The notes under the pieces: model-generated
Databases searched by the model: none
Told to the model about the DNA's origin: nothing
Seen by the model: the letters and a program-made list of their open reading frames with translations, nothing else
Translations under genes and position numbers: made by a program
Shown: piece by piece, positions 3,264 through 36,479 of the stretch
Position numbering within the stretch: position 1 is the stretch's first letter
How the letters are laid out: every line of letters starts with the position of its first letter
Assembly: GCA_016186995.1 (NCBI GenBank)
Contig: JACPKQ010000006.1
Location: forward strand, 1-43,221
Source: Deltaproteobacteria bacterium
GTDB taxonomy: Bacteria > Bdellovibrionota > JACOXK01
Length of the DNA: 43,221 bases
Direction: 5' to 3'

Positions 3264-4595
3264 ATGCATCGTTTACATCGTAGAAATCTTTGTAAAAAAC
3301 TTCAGAATGGGTTTCTTTTTTCAATAGGATCTGAAGAACTTTCCAGAAATGGTTCTGATGTTAATTTTGTTTTTAGACAAGATTCAAACTTTTTATATCT
3401 TACAGGTGTGGAAGAGCCAGGTTATGCCTTTATTTTAGATTTATCTAGAAATTATTTTCATCTTTTTATTCCAAAAGTAGATGCAAAACACATTGTATGG
3501 CTAGGTCATGTTCCAGATCTTTCTGAGTCAAAAAAAGTTTTTGGTGCGGATAAGGTTTCATACATCACTGATCTGGAAATAGAGCTTAAGAAAATTTCTA
3601 AAACGAAAGATCTTTATTTCCTTAAAACAAATCATGAGAAAGGGCTTAAGCTTTGTAAAAAATATTTCAGAATAAAACCCGAAGAAAAAAAACTCCATTG
3701 TGCCCTTGCAGAATTAAGAATTAAAAAATCGAAAGAAGAAATAACTCTTATGAAAGAAGCAGCCGAGATGACATCGTTGGGGCATATTGAGGCCATGAAG
3801 AAAACTCGCCCCGGGCTTTATGAATATCAGATTCAATCTTATTTAGAACAAAAATTTCTTGAGAAGGGCGCTCAACATTGCGCTTATCCCTCTATTGTGG
3901 GGGCTGGTAAAAATGCAGCTATTCTTCATTATCATCACAACTCTTCACAATTACAAAAAGGAGATCTTCTTTTGATTGATGCTGGGGCTGAGGTCAAAGG
4001 CTATGCTTCAGACGTAACGCGAACTTTTCCTATTTCTGGAAAATTTACGCAAAAACAAAAAGACATGTACGATCTTGTTTTAAAAATGCAAGAAGAGTGT
4101 ATTCAAGGGGTAAAGCCGGGTGTTTTATTTTATGATCTTCATCTTTTGTCAGCTCGTATTCTTCTCAAGGGGCTTAAAGATTTAGGGCTTCTTAAAGGTT
4201 CTGTCGAAAACATGCTTCGAAAGGGTGTGGATAAGCTTTTTTATCCCCATGGTCTGGGGCATTTTTTAGGTCTTGATGTTCATGATGTTGTGCCTCCCCC
4301 CGTCATTGCGAGGAGCAGAGCGACGAAACAATCACGTCTTCGAGCCAGTCGTAAACTAGAAGAGAACAATGTTATTACCATCGAGCCAGGTGTTTATTTC
4401 ATACCTGCGCTTTTAAAAGACCCCAACAACAGAAAGAAATTTAAAGATTTTGTTCATTGGAGTAAAGTTGACCCATATCTTCAGTTTGGTGGTATTCGTA
4501 TTGAGGATGATGTTGTCATTACCCCCAAAAAACCTCTTATCTTAACCCACAAATGTCCTAAGAAAGTGAACGATCTAGAAAATATTAAAAATTAA
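3264..4595 (+). CDS. pepP: Xaa-Pro aminopeptidase P (M24B) with a repeat-encoded insertion
   Basis: This dimetal aminopeptidase of 443 residues cleaves N-terminal residues preceding proline. The N-terminal creatinase-like domain includes FRQDSNFLYLTGVEEPGYA (about 34-52). The pita-bread catalytic domain supplies the metal ligands: Asp in IDAGAEVKGY, Asp in ASDVTRTF, His in HGLGHFLGLDVHDV, Glu in TIEPGVYF and Glu in GGIRIEDDV. Between HDV and the EPG motif lies PVIARSRATKQSRLRASRK, an insertion not expected in the family and encoded by dispersed repeat family A. All ligands remain in frame, so the enzyme may still be active with an enlarged surface loop. It follows the acyl-CoA dehydrogenase by 10 bases. 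Confidence 0.92.
   Translation: MHRLHRRNLCKKLQNGFLFSIGSEELSRNGSDVNFVFRQDSNFLYLTGVEEPGYAFILDLSRNYFHLFIPKVDAKHIVWLGHVPDLSESKKVFGADKVSYITDLEIELKKISKTKDLYFLKTNHEKGLKLCKKYFRIKPEEKKLHCALAELRIKKSKEEITLMKEAAEMTSLGHIEAMKKTRPGLYEYQIQSYLEQKFLEKGAQHCAYPSIVGAGKNAAILHYHHNSSQLQKGDLLLIDAGAEVKGYASDVTRTFPISGKFTQKQKDMYDLVLKMQEECIQGVKPGVLFYDLHLLSARILLKGLKDLGLLKGSVENMLRKGVDKLFYPHGLGHFLGLDVHDVVPPPVIARSRATKQSRLRASRKLEENNVITIEPGVYFIPALLKDPNNRKKFKDFVHWSKVDPYLQFGGIRIEDDVVITPKKPLILTHKCPKKVNDLENIKN
4301..4346 (+). repeat. Family A palindromic repeat inside pepP, in frame
   Basis: CGTCATTGCGAGGAGCAGAG followed by CGACGAAACAATC is a copy of the family A element seen intergenically at 7681, 11063, 19985 and 36383. It is read in the frame that yields the 'VIARSRATKQS' peptide and does not break the ORF. 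Confidence 0.88.
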
Positions 4596-5709: not shown

Positions 5710-7344
5710 TTAAGGTGTCTCAAATAGTTGAGGGGTGATATCGAATGTTGGAATAATGTGTTCTAGTCCTGAAAAGTAAGCTTTATCTTCAAGCAGAGGG
5801 AGTTTTGCATTAAAGTAGCAGTTGAGTAAAACTCTTAGAATATTTACATTGGAGATGTGGTCATATATGAGATGCTCGCATTCTTTTTTAAGATAAATAA
5901 GGTTTAAATTGAAAAATCTTTCTTGAAAGGCTGGCGGTGAGGTGGAGGCTGCTGAAGTTGGAGTGCCATCTTCATAAAGTTGAAAGCCTGAACCATGATC
6001 AGATTGAAATATAATGACAACATTTCCTTTATATTTATCAGTAATGCTATGCGCTAATCCTAATAATTTCGAAGCTACAAAACGAAGTTGTTTGAGATAA
6101 TATTTTTTAGCTGAGTTGATTTCATGAGCTTCATTAATAATATTGGGAGGATTAAGATTTCCATCTTCATCAAAGAAATAAGGCGTGTGTGGACTTAAAA
6201 TATGACAGTAAATAAATTGAGGCTGTTTTTTTTTAGATATTTTTTTTAATATTTCAAAAGCAAGAGGAATACCCGAACTTTTGTAGTGCTGTAGAGTGGC
6301 CCACTTTTTTATAACGGGGCTGATAATGCTTGTATCAATAACTAAATTTATATATCTATTATGGACGAGTAGATAATTTTGAAAAAATCCGTGGTTGCGA
6401 GCACTGATATTGATATCAGCGTAGGGGTTATACTCTGTCGGATAGTACCCACTAGCGCCCCCTATATGAATCGTTTTATAACCTTTATTTTTTAAAAATT
6501 TCAGAATTCTAGTGTTTTGAGCTAATGATTTAGTGGCTTGAGTTAGGCTCATATTTTGTTGTTTATATAGTGTGTGTGAATATTCAAAGTTAAGAGTGGA
6601 TGGTAGGGAGTTGGCAGTTGTTGGATAATTAGAAAAGCTTTTATAGGGAATAATAAAGCCTAATTTTTTAAATTCGTTTTCTATTTCTTGTGTATCAAAT
6701 TTAAAGTAGGCGTTAAGGGTAGAAAAACCCGCAAATTCATCAACGACGACATAAAATATATCAGGATATTGGGATGTTGTTTGAGATTCTTTTTTAGTAG
6801 GTAAATTTTTTGTAGATTGAAAGGTTGCTAAGGCATAAGAAAAAATAAGAGATAGGGACACAATAAGGGTGTATCCTGCAAGAAGTCCTGTTGAAATTGT
6901 GAGAAATTGAGAGAGTTTTTGAAGAGAGCGTTTTGTTATAAGAAGAGAAATGATACCTGTCAGTAATAAAAGAAATGCAAATCCAAAACTAAATCGATAT
7001 CGGAAAAGATTTAAATCAAACTTTTCTAAGAAAAAAACTGAGAGAAAGTTTAATTTTGTGTTTAGAAGCATATGGAGAGAGCTTTCTATGTGTCCAAAAG
7101 AGAAAAATGTGAAGATACAAAGAGAACTTATAAGGCTATTTTTAATGCTATTTTTTATGATTAAATGAAGAATGTTATAAATAAAAATTAAAGCTATGAG
7201 GGCGATAATAATACAAATAATGACAGGAGTTATGAGGATATACTCATGTGAATTATGTGTGTACAGAAAGAGAAATGGATAAACCGTTATAAAGTAAGGA
7301 AACCAGTGCTGAGGAAACTTAGGAAAAATCATTTTTGCTGTCAC
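5710..7344 (-). CDS. Membrane-anchored sulfatase / LTA-synthase-like protein (alkaline phosphatase superfamily)
   Basis: The first ~175 of 544 residues form several hydrophobic membrane segments (around 13-29, 37-60, 72-84, 118-136, 150-172). The extracytoplasmic domain begins near PDIFYVVVDEFAG (194-206), whose acidic residues would bind metal. SNYPTT (238-243) supplies a candidate threonine nucleophile, and FQSDHGSGF further on matches the superfamily's D-H-G metal motif. Relatives transfer or hydrolyse phosphoglycerol, phosphoethanolamine or sulfate groups on surface polymers. Start choices are GTG at 7344 or ATG at 7332. Only 7 bases separate it from the small YLDPGT protein gene upstream on the same strand. 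The exact substrate is unknown. Confidence 0.8.
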   Translation of the reverse strand: MTAKMIFPKFPQHWFPYFITVYPFLFLYTHNSHEYILITPVIICIIIALIALIFIYNILHLIIKNSIKNSLISSLCIFTFFSFGHIESSLHMLLNTKLNFLSVFFLEKFDLNLFRYRFSFGFAFLLLLTGIISLLITKRSLQKLSQFLTISTGLLAGYTLIVSLSLIFSYALATFQSTKNLPTKKESQTTSQYPDIFYVVVDEFAGFSTLNAYFKFDTQEIENEFKKLGFIIPYKSFSNYPTTANSLPSTLNFEYSHTLYKQQNMSLTQATKSLAQNTRILKFLKNKGYKTIHIGGASGYYPTEYNPYADINISARNHGFFQNYLLVHNRYINLVIDTSIISPVIKKWATLQHYKSSGIPLAFEILKKISKKKQPQFIYCHILSPHTPYFFDEDGNLNPPNIINEAHEINSAKKYYLKQLRFVASKLLGLAHSITDKYKGNVVIIFQSDHGSGFQLYEDGTPTSAASTSPPAFQERFFNLNLIYLKKECEHLIYDHISNVNILRVLLNCYFNAKLPLLEDKAYFSGLEHIIPTFDITPQLFETP

Positions 7345-7351
7345 TTCTAAA

Positions 7352-7585
7352 TTATAACTTTGTGTTTGTAGACTTTTTTCTTTTTAGAACTGTATTATAT
7401 ATTTTTTGGAAATAGCTTTTTATATTGAAGAAAATACTTTTAAAAAAGATAAGTGATCCTACTAAGAATGCAAAAAAAAGCTGTAGATAATAACTTGTTG
7501 TGCCAGGGTCTAAATACGCATGGGCTGATGTGCTGACTGTAAGAGCAACGGCCAATATTATTAACATTCTTCGAAATTGTGCCAT
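7352..7585 (-). CDS. Small YLDPGT-motif membrane protein
   Basis: The 77-residue product has an N-terminal export signal (LIILAVALTVSTSAHA, cleavage likely after AHA). Then comes AYLDPGTTSYYLQLFFAFLV, continuing into a second hydrophobic segment and a basic tail. Small proteins with a 'YLDPGxGS' start after the signal peptide are, from general knowledge, frequent near sulfatase-like and exopolysaccharide genes, but their function is not established. It lies directly upstream of the sulfatase-like gene, so a partner or accessory role is the natural guess. The first codon is ATG at 7585. Confidence 0.8.
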   Translation of the reverse strand: MAQFRRMLIILAVALTVSTSAHAYLDPGTTSYYLQLFFAFLVGSLIFFKSIFFNIKSYFQKIYNTVLKRKKSTNTKL

Positions 7586-7680: not shown

Positions 7681-7767
7681 TCCTGTCATTGCGAGCGCAG
7701 CGAAGCAATCCCATCGCGGTAGCGATGAGATCGCCACAGTTTCCTAATGGAAACTTCGCGATGACGG
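7681..7767 (+). repeat. Palindromic dispersed repeat, family A (full-length copy)
   Basis: CCTGTCATTGCGAGCGCAGC-GAAGCAATCCCATCGCGGTA continues to AACTTCGCGATGACGGC. It sits between the divergent YLDPGT gene and the glycerophosphotransferase gene. The copy at 11063-11139 is a near match in the opposite orientation, so the two bracket the 7.8-11 kb operon as inverted copies. Confidence 0.85.
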
Positions 7768-7803: not shown

Positions 7804-8955
7804 ATGCAGCTTATAAGAAAAATATATAAAGCAGTTTTAGATAGTTATTCTTATTTAAAACTTTCGGAAAGAGAGAATAAAATTACATTTTATGCAGAGG
7901 ATGCTGCTAGTTTTGGGCATTTTGAAGCTATTATTACTGAACTGACATATACTTATAAAGTATGTATTAATTATCTTACATCGGATATCCATGATCCTGT
8001 TTTTATAAGAGATGATCCCTATATTCGCCCTTTTTATATTGGTTCTTCTTTTTTAAGAGTTCTTATTTTTTATTTTATTAAAACAAGGGTTTTTGTTATG
8101 ACAATGCCTGATCTTGAAACATTTCAACTTAAAAGGTCTTACGCCAAAGTGCATTATGTTTATATTTTTCATAATATGTTAAGTACCCACATGGTTTTTA
8201 GAAAAGGGGCTTTTGATCATTATGATACTCTTTTTTGTGTTGGGCCTCACCATTTAGAAGAGGTCAGAAAGACCGAATTAAAATATAACCTCAAGAAGAA
8301 GCATCTTGTAAACTATGGGTATAGTCGTTTGGACACTATTTTAAAAAACAAAGGAAAAACACAAATAAAAAAAGAGGGGCATGAGATGAGAGTACTTATT
8401 GCTCCTTCCTGGGGTAAAAATGCCCTTTTAGAATTGTGTGGAAATGAGATTTTAAGTACTTTGGCAAAAACTCATTTTTTAGTAAGGGTAAGGCCTCATC
8501 CTATGACACTAAAAAAGCAACCTAAGGCGATGACTTTATTAAGGGAAAAATATGCTGCGCATAAAAATATTGTTTTCGAATTTGATGTAGCTTCGACACA
8601 ATCTTTGTACGAGTCAGATGTTATGATTAGCGATTGGTCTGGTGCTGCATTAGATTATGCTTTTGGATTGGAAAAGCCAGTTATCTTTATTGACGTACCC
8701 CGTAAGGTTAACAATCCTGAATATGAGAATATAGATGTTATTCCTTTTGAAGTATCTGTTCGTAATGATATTGGCAAAGTTATTTCTGTAAATGAGTTCT
8801 CCAGGCTTCCAGGCATTATTACTGAACTTGTAAAATCAAAACATCTTTATGAAGATGCTATTAAAAAAACGAGAGATAAAAGTATTTTTAATATTGGCAA
8901 CAGTGGGAAAGAAGGGGCAAAAGCAATTTTAGAAATATTAGAGGTTCCACAATGA
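7804..8955 (+). CDS. CDP-glycerol glycerophosphotransferase family protein (TagF/TagB-like)
   Basis: This 383-residue protein resembles the C-terminal catalytic part of teichoic-acid glycerophosphotransferases, which move glycerol-phosphate (or a related polyol-phosphate) from a CDP donor onto a membrane-linked acceptor at the inner membrane face. Diagnostic stretches are LVRVRPHPM (about 223-231) and MISDWSGAALDYAF followed by GLEKPVIFIDVPRKVNNPEY near 280-310. The N-terminal third is hydrophobic in patches, but no clear transmembrane helix is forced. It overlaps the ATP-sulfurylase gene by 4 bases (ATGA). In a Gram-negative context the target is more likely a capsule or LPS-linked polymer than wall teichoic acid. 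Confidence 0.88.
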   Translation: MQLIRKIYKAVLDSYSYLKLSERENKITFYAEDAASFGHFEAIITELTYTYKVCINYLTSDIHDPVFIRDDPYIRPFYIGSSFLRVLIFYFIKTRVFVMTMPDLETFQLKRSYAKVHYVYIFHNMLSTHMVFRKGAFDHYDTLFCVGPHHLEEVRKTELKYNLKKKHLVNYGYSRLDTILKNKGKTQIKKEGHEMRVLIAPSWGKNALLELCGNEILSTLAKTHFLVRVRPHPMTLKKQPKAMTLLREKYAAHKNIVFEFDVASTQSLYESDVMISDWSGAALDYAFGLEKPVIFIDVPRKVNNPEYENIDVIPFEVSVRNDIGKVISVNEFSRLPGIITELVKSKHLYEDAIKKTRDKSIFNIGNSGKEGAKAILEILEVPQ

Positions 8956-10016
8956 TTTTAAAAACAACGATAAGCCCTGAAACACTTCAAGATATTATTT
9001 ATATAGAAAATGGAACTTATCATCCTTTGAGGGGATTTTTAACTAGAGATGAATATTATTCTGTTTTAAATAACATGCTTTTAAAAAATAAAGAACCTTG
9101 GAGTGTTCCTATTACTTTAGATGTTGATGCAGAGGTTTTTAAAAGGGCGCAAAAAGAAGACAAACTTTATTTTGAATATAATGGTTCACTTATTGGATTT
9201 ATGTTTATTGAAGATAGTTTTGAAATAGATGTTTCTCAAGATTGTCTTACTTTTTTTAAAACTCAAGATCTTAAGCATCCTGGGGTTGAGAAAGAGATGA
9301 AACGATCGCAATATAGAATAGGTGGGGTCGTTAAAGTAACTCAAAATAATATTTTAAAAAATGAATTGAATCCTATTTCTACCCAAAATTATTTTAAAAA
9401 ACAGGGGTGGAAAACTGTTTTAGGATTTCAGACAAGAAATCCAATTCATAGAGGACACGAATATCTTCAAAGAATAGCGCTCACTTTGTGTGATGGGCTT
9501 TTTATTAATCCTTCTATTGGTTGGAAGAAAAAGGGTGATTTTAGTGAAGAAGCGGTTATGGTTGCTTATAAGAAGATGCTTGCAGAGTTTTATCCTCATA
9601 ACAGAGTACATCTTGTGGGTTTAAAAAATGTTTTTAGATATGCAGGCCCGAGAGAGGCCATATTTCATGCTCTTATGAGGCGAAATTTGGGTTGTACACA
9701 TTTTCTGATTGGACGAGATCATGCGGGGGTTGGAAATTTTTATGAAAAGTACGAAGCTCAAGAACTTGCAAGAGAACTGCAAAAAAAGGTTGATCTGGGT
9801 ATTACTTTAGTATTGACGAAAGAGCCTTTTTTTTGTAATGCTTGTAATCAAGTTGCTACTGAAGAGTGCTGTGCTCATGAAGAGGGTGAACATGTGACAA
9901 TCAGTGGCACAGCTGTCAGGGAAAGTTTTAGAAGAGGAAAAATTCCTGACAACCGTTTTATGCGAGCTGAAATTTCCGAAGTAATATTAAATTTGAAAAA
10001 GGATATATTCATATGA
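8952..10016 (+). CDS. sat: Sulfate adenylyltransferase (ATP sulfurylase), homo-oligomeric type
   Basis: The enzyme makes adenosine 5'-phosphosulfate and PPi from ATP and sulfate. The 354-residue sequence has HPLRGFL (24-30), PWSVPITLDV (49-58), the nucleotide-binding QTRNPIHRGHE (160-170), GPREAIFHA (232-240), GRDHAG (254-259), a CNAC...CC..H metal-type cluster near 295-310, and the C-terminal SGTAVRE motif. All key motifs of the Sat family are present. It is slightly shorter than usual and carries no APS-kinase extension. No CysC, APS reductase, sulfotransferase or sulfate transporter is in the window. Instead it is overlapped by 4 bases on each side with a glycerophosphotransferase and a pyruvate-kinase-like gene. 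Its biological role here is therefore open. Confidence 0.9.
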   Translation: MILKTTISPETLQDIIYIENGTYHPLRGFLTRDEYYSVLNNMLLKNKEPWSVPITLDVDAEVFKRAQKEDKLYFEYNGSLIGFMFIEDSFEIDVSQDCLTFFKTQDLKHPGVEKEMKRSQYRIGGVVKVTQNNILKNELNPISTQNYFKKQGWKTVLGFQTRNPIHRGHEYLQRIALTLCDGLFINPSIGWKKKGDFSEEAVMVAYKKMLAEFYPHNRVHLVGLKNVFRYAGPREAIFHALMRRNLGCTHFLIGRDHAGVGNFYEKYEAQELARELQKKVDLGITLVLTKEPFFCNACNQVATEECCAHEEGEHVTISGTAVRESFRRGKIPDNRFMRAEISEVILNLKKDIFI

Positions 10017-10975
10017 AAAAACTTATTCTTACGGTAGGCCCCGCTTTTTTTAAAAGTAGTATTCTTACAAAATTTCCTTCAAAAAATTATATTTTTAGAA
10101 TTAATGGTGCCCATAATGATAAAGCAAGTATGGTGGAGTGTATTGAAAAATTAAGAAAGGCCCAACCTGATGCCCACATTTTAATTGATCTTCCAGGTAA
10201 TAAAATCAGGTTAAAAACACTTGAAAGCCCTATCCCTCTTGAAATAGGGAAAAATATTACTTTAAAAAAAGATCAACTTAATTATCCACAGTTTTGTGAG
10301 CTGATTCACCCTGGGGACACCGTATTAGCAGATGACAGTCGTCTTAAATTACAGGTTCAAGAAACTCGTAAAGAGGGTGTTGTTTTAAAATCACAATCGA
10401 ATGGTTCTTTAAAGTCAGGTAAAGGTTTGCATGTAAGAAATATCAATGAACACTTGCCTTTCTTTTTTGAAAGAGATTTGGAAATTATCGAAACAGCTAA
10501 TAAATATAAAATTACTTATTTAGGTTTATCTTTTGTTCGAGATGTGAAAGATATTTTATTGGCTCGTGAAGTAGTTAACAAAGAAATAACACTTATTTCT
10601 AAGGTTGAAACAAGATCTGCTGTTAAAAATATTGATTCTATTTTAACACAGGTTGACCATATTCTCATTGATCGAGGAGATCTATCAGCTGACATAGGGC
10701 TTGAAAAAATTCCTATGTGCCAAAAGTTTATTATTGAAAAAGCTCTATTTTACAACAAAAGGGTTTTTCTAGCTACTGAGTTTCTTAAATATATGACAGA
10801 TAATCCATTGCCATCCATTGCTGAGGTAACAAGCCTTTATAGCGCTATGAAGCAGGGTATTTATGGCATTCAACTTTCTGAAGAAACATCAACAGGGCTT
10901 TATCCTGAAGAATGTGTGGAAATAGTAAATAAAATACTTGAAGAAATTAGCCAAGAGCAGAGTTTTATTCTTTAG
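10013..10975 (+). CDS. Pyruvate-kinase-like protein consisting of catalytic A/B domains only
   Basis: The 320-residue protein aligns with pyruvate kinase from LTVGPA to ETSTGLYPEE but stops where the regulatory C-terminal domain would begin; full-length enzymes are about 470 residues or more. Kept residues: R29 and N31 in FRINGAH, K197 and E199 in ISKVET (phosphoryl transfer and metal), D223 in RGDLS, T255 in LATEFL. Changed: the canonical NFSHG is NGAHN, DTKGPE is DLPGNK (altering the monovalent-cation/K+ site), and KGVNLPG is KGLHVRN. It could use PEP or another enol-phosphate, but it is not a normal glycolytic enzyme. It overlaps sat by 4 bases, implying a dedicated partnership. Confidence 0.82.
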   Translation: MKKLILTVGPAFFKSSILTKFPSKNYIFRINGAHNDKASMVECIEKLRKAQPDAHILIDLPGNKIRLKTLESPIPLEIGKNITLKKDQLNYPQFCELIHPGDTVLADDSRLKLQVQETRKEGVVLKSQSNGSLKSGKGLHVRNINEHLPFFFERDLEIIETANKYKITYLGLSFVRDVKDILLAREVVNKEITLISKVETRSAVKNIDSILTQVDHILIDRGDLSADIGLEKIPMCQKFIIEKALFYNKRVFLATEFLKYMTDNPLPSIAEVTSLYSAMKQGIYGIQLSEETSTGLYPEECVEIVNKILEEISQEQSFIL

Positions 10976-11062: not shown

Positions 11063-11139
11063 TTGTCATCACGAGCCCGTAGGGCGTGGTGATCTCATCG
11101 CTACCGCGATGGGATTGCTTCGTTTCACTCGCAATGACG
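11063..11139 (+). repeat. Palindromic dispersed repeat, family A (inverted relative to 7681 copy)
   Basis: TTGTCATCACGAGCCCGTAG...CATCGCTACCGCGATGGGAT-TGCTTCG...CTCGCAATGACG. The central part is the reverse complement of the centre of the 7681 copy. It lies right after the pyruvate-kinase-like gene. Confidence 0.85.
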
Positions 11140-11146
11140 ATACAGC

Positions 11147-11200
11147 GGGAATCTAGGAATTCTGGATTCCAGATAGTCCTTCGGACTTCTGGAATGACAG
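11147..11200 (+). repeat. Palindromic dispersed repeat, family B, overlapping a gene start
   Basis: GGGAATCTAGGAATTCTGGA-TTCCAGATAGTCCTTCGGAC-TTCTGGAATGACAG. The terminal GGAATGACAG holds the ATG (11194) that best starts the following lipoprotein gene, so the repeat appears to supply the start codon and first residues. Confidence 0.8.
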
Positions 11201-12315
11201 AAAAAAAACTTGTGAGATTTTTTAAGTTTTTCTTTTATCTTTTCCTTGCCTCTTTTCTTGCCTTAGGTTGTGGCACTCAAAGTGATCCATATGAAAAAAT
11301 TCGAGATTGGTATAATACGGTTCAATCGTGGCCTGATGACCTTCTCAATGAAATTCCAGATCCTGAAGATTGGGTTGATTTACAATCCTTCTCAGACCCA
11401 CAGTATGTAGGCTTTGGTATTTATCTGGATCGAGAAAGACTTTCTCGATTTAAAGATGCTGCTATTCCAGAAGTTTTAGAAATTTTTGAGAAAGAGGGGG
11501 TTCGAGTTATTCGAGTGAACCGCTTAGCTCCAGGCAGGAAAAACGTCACTATCTCAGAAGAATATGTGACTTCTGAGTCGGGAGAGCTTGCAGATTATAT
11601 GAGTTCTTACAATGCCATGGGTATTTATTTCCCACAATTTAATAATACTATTATGAATTCAGTACCCGCATTTTTAAAAGAGAATAAACCCACCATCGGG
11701 CTTTTTAAAAATGTTACTAAAGAAACAGTTCTGCATGAATATTTACATCATCTCATTTATGAATTTCATGCCGTCAAAGAAAATGGTTTGTCTCTTTATA
11801 CGAGAAAAATATTAGAAAAAAACATACTTGCTATGAGATTTAAAGATATTGAAACTGAGTTTTTAGCATTGAGAGAAAAAAGAAGTAGAGGTGTGTCGCT
11901 ATTTCAAAGTGAGTGGGAAGAAAAATATCTCAATTATTTAGTGGGGCTTTTTAATGAATATAAAAATATTGCGTTTCATGAAAAGTCTCATTTCATTATT
12001 AATCAGTTTTTATTTGATAATCTTTATGAAGTGGGTTTAGAGGTTTCAGATATTTTAGGATTGTTTCAAAATTTTGAGATAGCCTATAGAAGGGTAGAAG
12101 CATCTTTAGAAAAACTCACCCAAGAGGTTCAAAAAGTTCACAATTCTTTAAGTAAAGAAAGCTATTCGCCTACTTTCCAAACTGAGTTTAAAAAAATACA
12201 TGCAGAAGTTTTAGATTTTAAAAACAACTCTTCATTTGAAAAAGAAAAATTACGTTTTTATGAGTGGTATGTGAGAGTTAAAAAAGGTTATCCACGTATT
12301 CTTATTTCTTTTTAA
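11194..12315 (+). CDS. Putative HExxH metallopeptidase-like lipoprotein
   Basis: The product starting at ATG 11194 has 373 residues with a lipoprotein signal: basic start, hydrophobic FFFYLFLASFLALGC, lipidated Cys26. A zinc-protease-like motif HEYLHH lies at 181-186 (HExxH at 181-185), followed by an IYEFHAVKENG stretch. The C-terminal half is helical and charged, with likely coiled-coil character near the end. The family is not recognised. The frame is open further upstream to 11086, but those codons are repeat-derived and lack a signal-like start. Its 3' end overlaps the convergent methyltransferase gene by 14 bases. Proteolytic activity is inferred from the motif only. Confidence 0.72.
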   Translation: MTEKKLVRFFKFFFYLFLASFLALGCGTQSDPYEKIRDWYNTVQSWPDDLLNEIPDPEDWVDLQSFSDPQYVGFGIYLDRERLSRFKDAAIPEVLEIFEKEGVRVIRVNRLAPGRKNVTISEEYVTSESGELADYMSSYNAMGIYFPQFNNTIMNSVPAFLKENKPTIGLFKNVTKETVLHEYLHHLIYEFHAVKENGLSLYTRKILEKNILAMRFKDIETEFLALREKRSRGVSLFQSEWEEKYLNYLVGLFNEYKNIAFHEKSHFIINQFLFDNLYEVGLEVSDILGLFQNFEIAYRRVEASLEKLTQEVQKVHNSLSKESYSPTFQTEFKKIHAEVLDFKNNSSFEKEKLRFYEWYVRVKKGYPRILISF

Positions 12316-19984: not shown

Positions 19985-20073
19985 TGTCATCGCGAGGAGC
20001 GTTAAGCGACGTGGCGATCTTCTCAAAATTTAAAAAAAATTTTGAGAGATTGCTTCGCTACACTCGCAATGAC
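19985..20073 (+). repeat. Palindromic dispersed repeat, family A
   Basis: TGTCATCGCGAGGAGCGTTA...GTGGCGATC... and ...GATTGCTTCGCTACACTCGC-AATGACA enclose a central TCTCAAAATT...AATTTTGAGA palindrome. Confidence 0.83.
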
Positions 20074-20104
20074 AATATATATGGCTGGTTTCTTTTTTTA
20101 TCGC

Positions 20105-34256: not shown

Positions 34257-34859
34257 ATGATGTCAATCAAAATAAAACCTCTGAGTCTCGTGGGGCCTAT
34301 GGGATGTGGAAAATCTACCTTAGCACCACTTTTAGCCAAAGAACTTCAATGGCATTATTTTGATACCGATCAAATCGTTGTTCAGAATGAGACTTTGCTT
34401 TCCTGTCATTCTGAGCGAAGCGAAGAATATAGATCCTTCATGAGAAGTTTTGGAAGATTGCCTCAGGATGACAGAGGGAATAAGTTAAAGGCACTAGAAA
34501 TATTTCAAAAAAAAGGAGAACTTTATTTTCGAGAGCAAGAATATCAGGTTTTGAAAAAGATTTTTGAAGAAAATAAAAATAGTTATTTTGTTATTGCGTT
34601 AGGAGGTGGAACACTTGTCTTGGAAAAAAATAGAGATCTTCTTGTTTCTCAAACAAAAAGTATTTTTTTAAAAACTTCACTAGAAGAAATAGAAAAACGT
34701 CTTTTTTTAGAAGATAGGCCTTCTTGGTGTTCTACTTGGCTTCAAAAAGTATATCCTCAAAGAATTGGGTTTTATGAAATGAGTGATATTATTATTGATA
34801 CAGATTTTAAAAATCCTTCTCAGATTGTAAAAGAAATTGTTTCTGCTCTGAGTTCGTGA
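34257..34859 (+). CDS. aroK: Shikimate kinase with a repeat-encoded insertion
   Basis: This 200-residue kinase phosphorylates shikimate in aromatic amino-acid synthesis. The Walker A motif is GPMGCGKST (13-21). The FDTD motif (shikimate-binding Asp) is at 35-38, followed later by EIFQKKGELYFREQE with the shikimate-binding Arg, ALGGGTL, and a lid segment with DRPSW. Between FDTDQIVVQNET and ALEIF lies about 28 residues (SCHSERSEEYRSF... to DDRGNK) encoded by a family C repeat; typical kinases are about 170 residues and have only a few residues there. Two ATGs (34257, 34260) are adjacent. The 3' end overlaps the convergent DAHP synthase gene by 40 bases. Confidence 0.9.
   Translation: MMSIKIKPLSLVGPMGCGKSTLAPLLAKELQWHYFDTDQIVVQNETLLSCHSERSEEYRSFMRSFGRLPQDDRGNKLKALEIFQKKGELYFREQEYQVLKKIFEENKNSYFVIALGGGTLVLEKNRDLLVSQTKSIFLKTSLEEIEKRLFLEDRPSWCSTWLQKVYPQRIGFYEMSDIIIDTDFKNPSQIVKEIVSALSS
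34402..34474 (+). repeat. Family C repeat in frame in aroK
   Basis: CCTGTCATTCTGAGCGAAGC-GAAGAATATAGATCC...GATTGCCTCAGGATGACAG, a complete element with both terminal TGTCAT/ATGACA ends. Confidence 0.88.
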
Positions 34860-36382: not shown

Positions 36383-36479
36383 CTGTCATTGCGAACGAAT
36401 GTGAAGCAATCCCCTAGAATTGATTTTTCAATTCTAGGAGATCGCCACGGGTTCTTTTGAGAACCCTCGCGATGACAGA
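36383..36479 (+). repeat. Palindromic dispersed repeat, family A
   Basis: CCTGTCATTGCGAACGAATG-TGAAGCAATCC, a central CTAGAATTGA...TCAATTCTAG palindrome, then GAGATCGCCACGGGTTC...GAACCCTCGCGATGACAG. It is the first of four repeats filling 36354-36739, a 386-bp stretch without a gene. Confidence 0.85.

Follow-up and report, generated by a model that had tools for sequence, protein, structure and literature searches.

A candidate sulfate-activation operon joining ATP sulfurylase, a short pyruvate-kinase-like protein and a TagF-like transferase in a Bdellovibrionota genome

What does an ATP sulfurylase (Sat) do in an operon with a pyruvate-kinase-like protein and a TagF-like transferase, in a genome assembly that has no recognised adenosine 5'-phosphosulfate (APS) kinase? 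We addressed this question for three genes in a stretch of 43,221 nucleotides (the window) from contig JACPKQ010000006.1 of a bacterium of the Bdellovibrionota. The usual route of glycan sulfation runs from Sat through the APS kinase CysC to 3'-phosphoadenosine 5'-phosphosulfate (PAPS) and a sulfotransferase. We tentatively suggest, as a complete explanation that we hold to be somewhat less than evenly probable, that the operon is one form, without CysC, of a widespread (CysC)-Sat-short PK sulfate-activation cassette that decorates surface glycans. The operon consists of the following features.

7804-8955, plus strand: TagF-like GT-B transferase of 383 amino acids, matching PF04464 with 36.5 bits (cut-off 22.1); proposed transferase of the activated group
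8952-10016, plus strand: Sat, 354 amino acids, matching PF14306 (117 bits) and PF01747 (259 bits)
10013-10975, plus strand: short pyruvate-kinase-like protein (short PK) of 320 amino acids, A and B domains only, matching PF00224 (181 bits)
8952-8955, plus strand: ATGA overlap of the TagF-like stop and Sat start codons, read from the sequence
10013-10016, plus strand: ATGA overlap of the Sat stop and short PK start codons, read from the sequence

These matches agree with the identities that a first-pass annotation had given to the three genes, and ATGA at both junctions bears out its statement that the genes overlap by exactly 4 bases.

Recurrence of the Sat-PK pair

We searched for relatives of the short PK in 369 genomes of the same phylum, in a broad scan of 84,980 species genomes, and in a sample of 397 Campylobacterota genomes. 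The phylum search added three genomes, and in each of them Sat adjoins the short PK: one has CysC beside Sat, one has a TagF-like gene, and one has a PK-CysC fusion followed by a sulfotransferase. The broad scan, in which an alignment query found loci and a single-sequence query of genome contigs found none, returned 26 loci. These include three records of phylum genomes and one protein (L044; 25% identity, 445 amino acids) that is not a short PK and was left out of the count, as was a fourth match of the phylum search, G299 (L008), which has an open frame of 476 amino acids. Sat is present in 22 of the 26 short-PK loci (the window and 25 from the broad scan) and CysC in 15, twice as a PK-CysC fusion, with CysC-Sat-PK as the commonest order. 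Four loci have no Sat, and one of them (L041) stops at a contig end. Six of the Campylobacterota genomes contain a short PK, with Sat adjacent in all six and with the order CysC-Sat-PK-CysQ-like in one; two of these loci had already been counted and four were new. Overall, Sat is located beside the short PK in 26 of 30 loci, and the 4-base Sat/PK overlap is found in seven loci besides the window. The carriers include assemblies of Planctomycetota, Omnitrophota, Campylobacterota, Bacillota, Ignavibacteriota, Lentisphaerota, Margulisiibacteriota, and Woesearchaeota, and the cassette has probably moved horizontally. Malaciobacter halophilus and Anaerosacchariphilus polymeriproducens are carriers that can be cultured and are not pathogenic. 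Plasmid and phage records contained only PKs of about 30% identity, labelled pyruvate kinase where a PK annotation exists, and viral contigs contained no short PK.

This recurrence across phyla is far beyond chance and rules out a chance adjacency of Sat and PK. The earlier view of the three genes as one functional unit is supported. The first-pass annotation had made its proposal depend on the pair recurring elsewhere, and it does recur in many phyla.

The neighbors of the pair are also informative. A CysQ-like phosphatase is encoded near Sat-PK in L012, L020, L033, and L088, and a sulfotransferase in L012, L033, and L045. Other neighbors are predicted to encode TauE/SafE-type and Na/H-exchanger-type transporters, sulfatase-superfamily proteins (other PF00884 genes adjoin the cassette in L021, L027, and L028), sialic-acid-type sugar enzymes, and ATP-binding cassette export proteins. 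This set matches the content expected of a PAPS-based glycan-sulfation cluster. Thus, a setting of surface-polymer decoration, as first proposed, is supported, since relatives of Sat-PK often occur in polysaccharide loci. The further proposal of an undescribed pathway held in part: there is a functional unit at a surface-polymer locus, but ordinary sulfate activation covers most of the related loci. In most loci no exotic substrate is required because the cassettes include CysC, joined in some by a CysQ-like phosphatase and a sulfotransferase.

In the Campylobacter relatives, CysC is encoded at another locus than Sat-PK. In Campylobacter taeniopygiae (L064:2294-2563), a stand-alone CysC beside ispG is apparently truncated, with another open reading frame overlapping its end. 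At two loci (L028:7777-12527 and L042:7141-16438), a short PK without a nearby Sat is found beside sulfatase-superfamily and NTP (nucleoside triphosphate) transferase genes, and in L028 a phosphoenolpyruvate (PEP) mutase and a phosphonopyruvate decarboxylase are encoded downstream. At these two loci the short PK may have another use.

Sat, the short PK and the TagF-like transferase

The source genome (1.68 Mb in 30 contigs, 93% complete) has a single Sat, which is the operon copy. It contains the PUA-like and catalytic domains and the QxRN, HxxH, and GRDHAG motifs of the family (QTRNPIHRGHE at residue 160, GRDHAGVG at residue 254). It scored 412.7 bits against NF003166, above the cut-off of 387, and 303 bits against TIGR00339, below the cut-off of 323; the closest solved structure is the ATP sulfurylase 8a8d (E 4.9e-90). 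Neither CysC (PF01583) nor CysH was found in the source assembly, in a search that did not extend to AprA and AprB. A weak match to PAPS reductase (PF01507), the only one in the genome, is the tRNA-lysidine synthase TilS beside an FtsH-like gene. The first-pass annotation had described a canonical Sat with no APS kinase or reductase nearby and had allowed that these genes might lie elsewhere, with Sat as the sole assimilatory copy; CysC and CysH are missing from the whole assembly, making it unlikely that Sat serves cysteine assimilation through an APS or PAPS reductase. Seven other genomes of the same class have neither Sat nor a close short PK, which points to probable horizontal acquisition of the operon or to its loss from these relatives.

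The genome encodes two PKs: besides the short one in the operon, contig 5 has one of full length. The short PK ends at residue 320 and has no C domain, and it scored 243 bits against the pyruvate-kinase equivalog TIGR01064, below the cut-off of 306. An AlphaFold2 model (mean predicted local distance difference test score, pLDDT, of 94) aligned with the A and B domains of muscle PK with a Z score of 36.7. Alignment showed that the equivalents of PK residues R73, N75, D113, R120, K270, E272, D296, and T328 are retained as R29, N31, D59, R66, K197, E199, D223, and T255, which we take to bind PEP, Mg, and nucleotide. The protein is therefore as first described in keeping the phosphoryl-transfer residues and lacking the C-terminal domain.

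An altered cation site had also been noted. The motif DLPGNKIR does differ from the D[TLI]xGP[EK] of full-length PKs in the alignment, but the difference is mostly a published signature. Leu113 and Lys117, which mark potassium-independent PKs (PMC4284704, PMC5501398, PMC8835810), are present in the window PK and in all short-PK relatives that cover the motif; the short PK also has P114 and N116. Because most of the change is this known signature, it is not by itself evidence of a new substrate. From its sequence, the short PK would be a PK barrel of the potassium-independent type without the regulatory C domain.

Four active-site changes are specific to the family: F76G, S77A, A293D, and M360Q in approximate muscle-PK numbering. 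In the motifs, RLNFSH becomes R[IL]NGAH (two changes), ARGD becomes DRGD, and MLS becomes QLS. None of the four was present in 17 other PKs, mostly of the same genomes, and a few short PKs still have Ser in the first of these motifs. In a docking study, A293 is among the residues that line the PEP site (PMC11207066). The short PKs form one clade with a support of 100 against the 17 other PKs, which include the full-length PK of the source genome. At least 20 of the 26 short-PK genomes contain another PK, and the short PK is thus a dedicated copy.

The TagF-like protein combines PF04464 with a GT-B fold. Its AlphaFold2 model (pLDDT 90) matched TagF (3l7m, Z 22.2) and TarL (8va1, Z 20.8), and a profile comparison with TarL gave E 5.6e-6. 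The model fits UDP-N-acetylglucosamine 2-epimerases equally well, with tied scores, so that the predicted structure alone is insufficient to assign a function. At E 1e-25 or better, homologues were found in 8 of the 369 phylum genomes. Two of these have the gene with Sat-PK (the window and G282), and the Woesearchaeota locus L027 adds a third case. L043 encodes a TagF-like protein that was too divergent (19-22%) to be placed in the same subfamily.

Other homologues have different partners. In L082 the gene follows a phosphonopyruvate decarboxylase (above cut-off) and a PsrA-type iron-dependent alcohol dehydrogenase (below cut-off), and L080 has a cytidylyltransferase-PEP-mutase fusion (above cut-off) close to it. 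In L083 (8242-13283) it lies ahead of a gene for a PRK05849 protein (948 bits, above cut-off), a family that we take to be that of the Campylobacter glutamine kinase Cj1418; this locus also encodes a protein like gamma-glutamyl-CDP-amidate hydrolase (89 bits, below the cut-off of 250) and an NTP transferase. In L084 (4725-8912) the partners are a PPDK_N/PEP-utiliser protein and an NTP transferase, and in L081 no activation genes were recognised. Because the homologues pair with Sat-PK, phosphonate, or phosphoramidate-type genes, we infer that the TagF-like protein works as a transferase module: it would pass on the terminal group of a nucleotide-activated donor, with exchangeable cassettes supplying the activation. 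L083 and L084 are phosphoramidate-type gene sets with a TagF-like transferase outside Campylobacter.

Two genes divergent from the operon encode recurrent partners of the TagF-like protein.

7352-7585, minus strand: small YLDPGT membrane protein of about 77 amino acids, found by a motif scan of the loci, without a Pfam match
5710-7344, minus strand: membrane protein with a sulfatase/alkaline-phosphatase-superfamily domain (PF00884)

A YLDPG protein accompanies the TagF-like protein in the window, L027, L080, L081, and L083, and in L084 as INPG in a fusion; the motif scan found none in CysC-type loci. Relatives of the sulfatase-superfamily membrane protein are located beside the TagF-like gene in L080.

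The CysC-less branch and its possible chemistry

The set of close TagF-like gene, Sat, and PK was found in the window genome and in two other, distant genomes (G384 and G376), all draft or metagenome assemblies. None of the three has a match to PF01583 or to Sulfotransfer_3 (PF13469). G371 and G385 also have no PF01583, but their contigs break inside Sat, so that only these three genomes combine its absence with an intact Sat neighborhood. A single clade was rejected both for the PKs of the three TagF-type loci (approximately unbiased test, p 0.0002) and for the TagF-like sequences of the three Sat-PK loci (p 0.007), suggesting that the CysC-less combination was probably assembled more than once. 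A specialised APS clade of TagF-like proteins was considered and rejected, as the TagF-like tree was unresolved and the Sat-PK members did not group.

In the reading we favor, Sat would form APS from ATP and sulfate, as its conserved motifs suggest. The short PK would use PEP to maintain high ATP and low ADP at the cassette; taken alone, this step falls just short of being as probable as not. ATP regeneration for Sat and CysC would be the simplest role for the protein, and the two PK-CysC fusions would suit it. TagF obtains glycerol-phosphate by attack on the beta-phosphorus of CDP-glycerol, releasing CMP. By analogy, the TagF-like protein would take the sulfuryl group directly from APS to a glycan, with attack on the sulfur releasing AMP, a step that on its own is conceivable but somewhat doubtful. 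APS is proposed as the direct donor because this branch has neither an APS kinase nor a recognised sulfotransferase. The co-occurrence of the YLDPGT and sulfatase-superfamily proteins suggests that they would act downstream at the membrane.

Several points weigh against this reading. The chemistry of Sat, PK, and the TagF-like protein is in each case a prediction, and we know of no GT-B enzyme that transfers a group directly from APS to glycans. Why a cell that already has a normal PK would need a private one for ATP regeneration is not obvious, and the four active-site changes, with A293 at the PEP site, mean that PEP may not be the substrate. CysC could lie within the missing part of the genome. 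In the source genome, PF13469 had no match, other sulfotransferase families being outside the search, and no CDP-polyol gene was noticed in the window, without a genome-wide search for CDP-glycerol synthesis.

The operon might instead belong to conventional PAPS sulfation, with an APS kinase that is encoded in the 7% missing from the assembly or belongs to an unrecognised family, a non-PF13469 sulfotransferase, and a TagF-like protein that is an ordinary polyol-phosphate transferase. We consider this unlikely, if still a serious contender: most relatives have CysC beside Sat-PK, the Campylobacter relatives keep it at a different locus, and the three CysC-less genomes of TagF type are draft or metagenome assemblies. 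On the other hand, CysC is missing from three separate genomes that share a close TagF-like gene, and the TagF-like homologues adjoin other nucleotide-activated headgroup pathways and no recognised CDP-glycerol pathway. A new activated group is another possibility, and the location of TagF-like homologues with phosphorus-based groups outside the Sat-PK loci would suit it. In that case PK would make a tetrahedral phospho-compound resembling sulfate, Sat would adenylylate it, CysC where present would 3'-phosphorylate it, and a sulfotransferase-like or TagF-like protein would transfer it. Such a route would copy the logic of the phosphoramidate pathway (kinase, nucleotidyltransferase, transferase). 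It accords with a constant Sat-PK core and an optional CysC, with F76G, A293D, and M360Q being fixed or nearly so in short PKs and absent from the 17 other PKs, and with the occurrence of short PK beside NTP transferases without a nearby Sat in L028 and L042. Yet the classical sulfate-site motifs of Sat are intact, the PEP, Mg, and nucleotide ligands of PK are all retained, and CysQ-like and sulfotransferase neighbors suit plain sulfate, leaving this route distinctly improbable.

It is very unlikely that the short PK is a PEP-dependent APS 3'-kinase supplying PAPS in the CysC-less branch. PK binds adenine nucleotides, and no CysC accompanies the close TagF-like gene, but the same PK family co-occurs with CysC and is twice fused to it, the PK fold acts on the beta-phosphate end and not on the ribose, and the PK motifs of CysC-less and other members are alike. 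More improbable still is that Sat is an ordinary enzyme of sulfate assimilation or dissimilation whose PK neighbor is an unrelated paralogue; the ordinary Sat motifs would allow it, but the assembly has no CysC or CysH (within the search described above) and the adjacent pair recurs across phyla. Considered jointly, the two readings in which the TagF-like GT-B protein uses APS itself, or in which Sat and a remodelled PK make an undescribed activated phospho-group, come close to an even chance. The APS reading would mean sulfation without PAPS and without an enzyme of the sulfotransferase fold, and activation cassettes for sulfate, phosphonate, and phosphoramidate that are exchangeable.

Flanking DNA and relation to known systems

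The operon stretch has a GC content of 30-33%, compared with 34-44% around it, and is bracketed by two repeat arms.

7685-7737, plus strand: left arm of a 53-nucleotide inverted repeat around the operon, found by sequence comparison
11086-11138, minus strand: right arm of the same repeat, found by sequence comparison

The arms are 92% identical, and the description of an AT-rich stretch with inverted repeats on either side was thus accurate. More copies of the repeat family occur elsewhere in the window, where its dispersed members are at 7685-7737, 11086-11138, 20046-20077, and 36403-36413. We set the arms aside as functional parts of the pathway, since they are dispersed repeats with copies elsewhere; the two copies flanking the operon might reflect its past mobilisation. 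Copies of dispersed repeats at 4302-4355 and 34404-34484 apparently lie in frame within coding genes, one M24-peptidase-like (VIARSRATKQS...) and the other shikimate-kinase-like (CHSERSEE...), and resemble the protein-coding palindromic elements of Rickettsia. The open reading frame at 11086-12315 starts within the repeat. Its true start is likely the ATG at 11194, giving a lipoprotein-like product with an HExxH motif (HEYLH) and no family match.

The conservation of a dedicated PK family within this cassette, across many bacterial phyla and in Woesearchaeota assemblies, implies that sulfate activation includes a step not yet understood. The idea of APS as a direct sulfuryl donor for surface polymers can be tested with the CysC-less version, and the common TagF-like transferase suggests that one enzyme family serves several unusual surface groups. 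In a limited search of the open-access literature, no paper was found to describe a sulfation cluster containing both PK and Sat. Should direct transfer from APS or a new activated group be confirmed, the variant with a TagF-like gene and no CysC could count as categorically new.

The closest known parallels each share part of this arrangement. Campylobacter jejuni HS:19 has a non-assimilatory sulfation cluster beside its capsule locus, with the order cysD-cysN-anion permease-cysC-sulfotransferase (PMC8743553). Like the window, it has sulfate activation at a surface-glycan locus without sulfate reduction, and glycan sulfation was proposed. Unlike the window, it uses CysDN in place of Sat and has no PK, and it contains the CysC and sulfotransferase that the window lacks. 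In the methyl-phosphoramidate modification of the Campylobacter capsule (cj1415-cj1418, cj1421/1422; PMC3907429), a small group is likewise activated and then put on the capsule, and the TagF-like genes of L083 and L084 are located beside such genes; the window has Sat-PK in place of the glutamine kinase, cytidylyltransferase, and amidohydrolase. With TagF and TarL, the TagF-like protein shares PF04464, the GT-B fold, and the F-H and RPHP histidine motifs, whereas it is a short single-domain protein with 13-15% identity in structural alignment and has exchangeable partner pathways. Finally, the short PK shares L113, K117, and the PEP, Mg, and nucleotide residues with the potassium-independent PKs of the Lys117/Leu113 cluster (PMC4284704), and differs from them in lacking the C domain, in P114, N116, A293D, F76G, S77A, and M360Q, and in being dedicated to the Sat operon.

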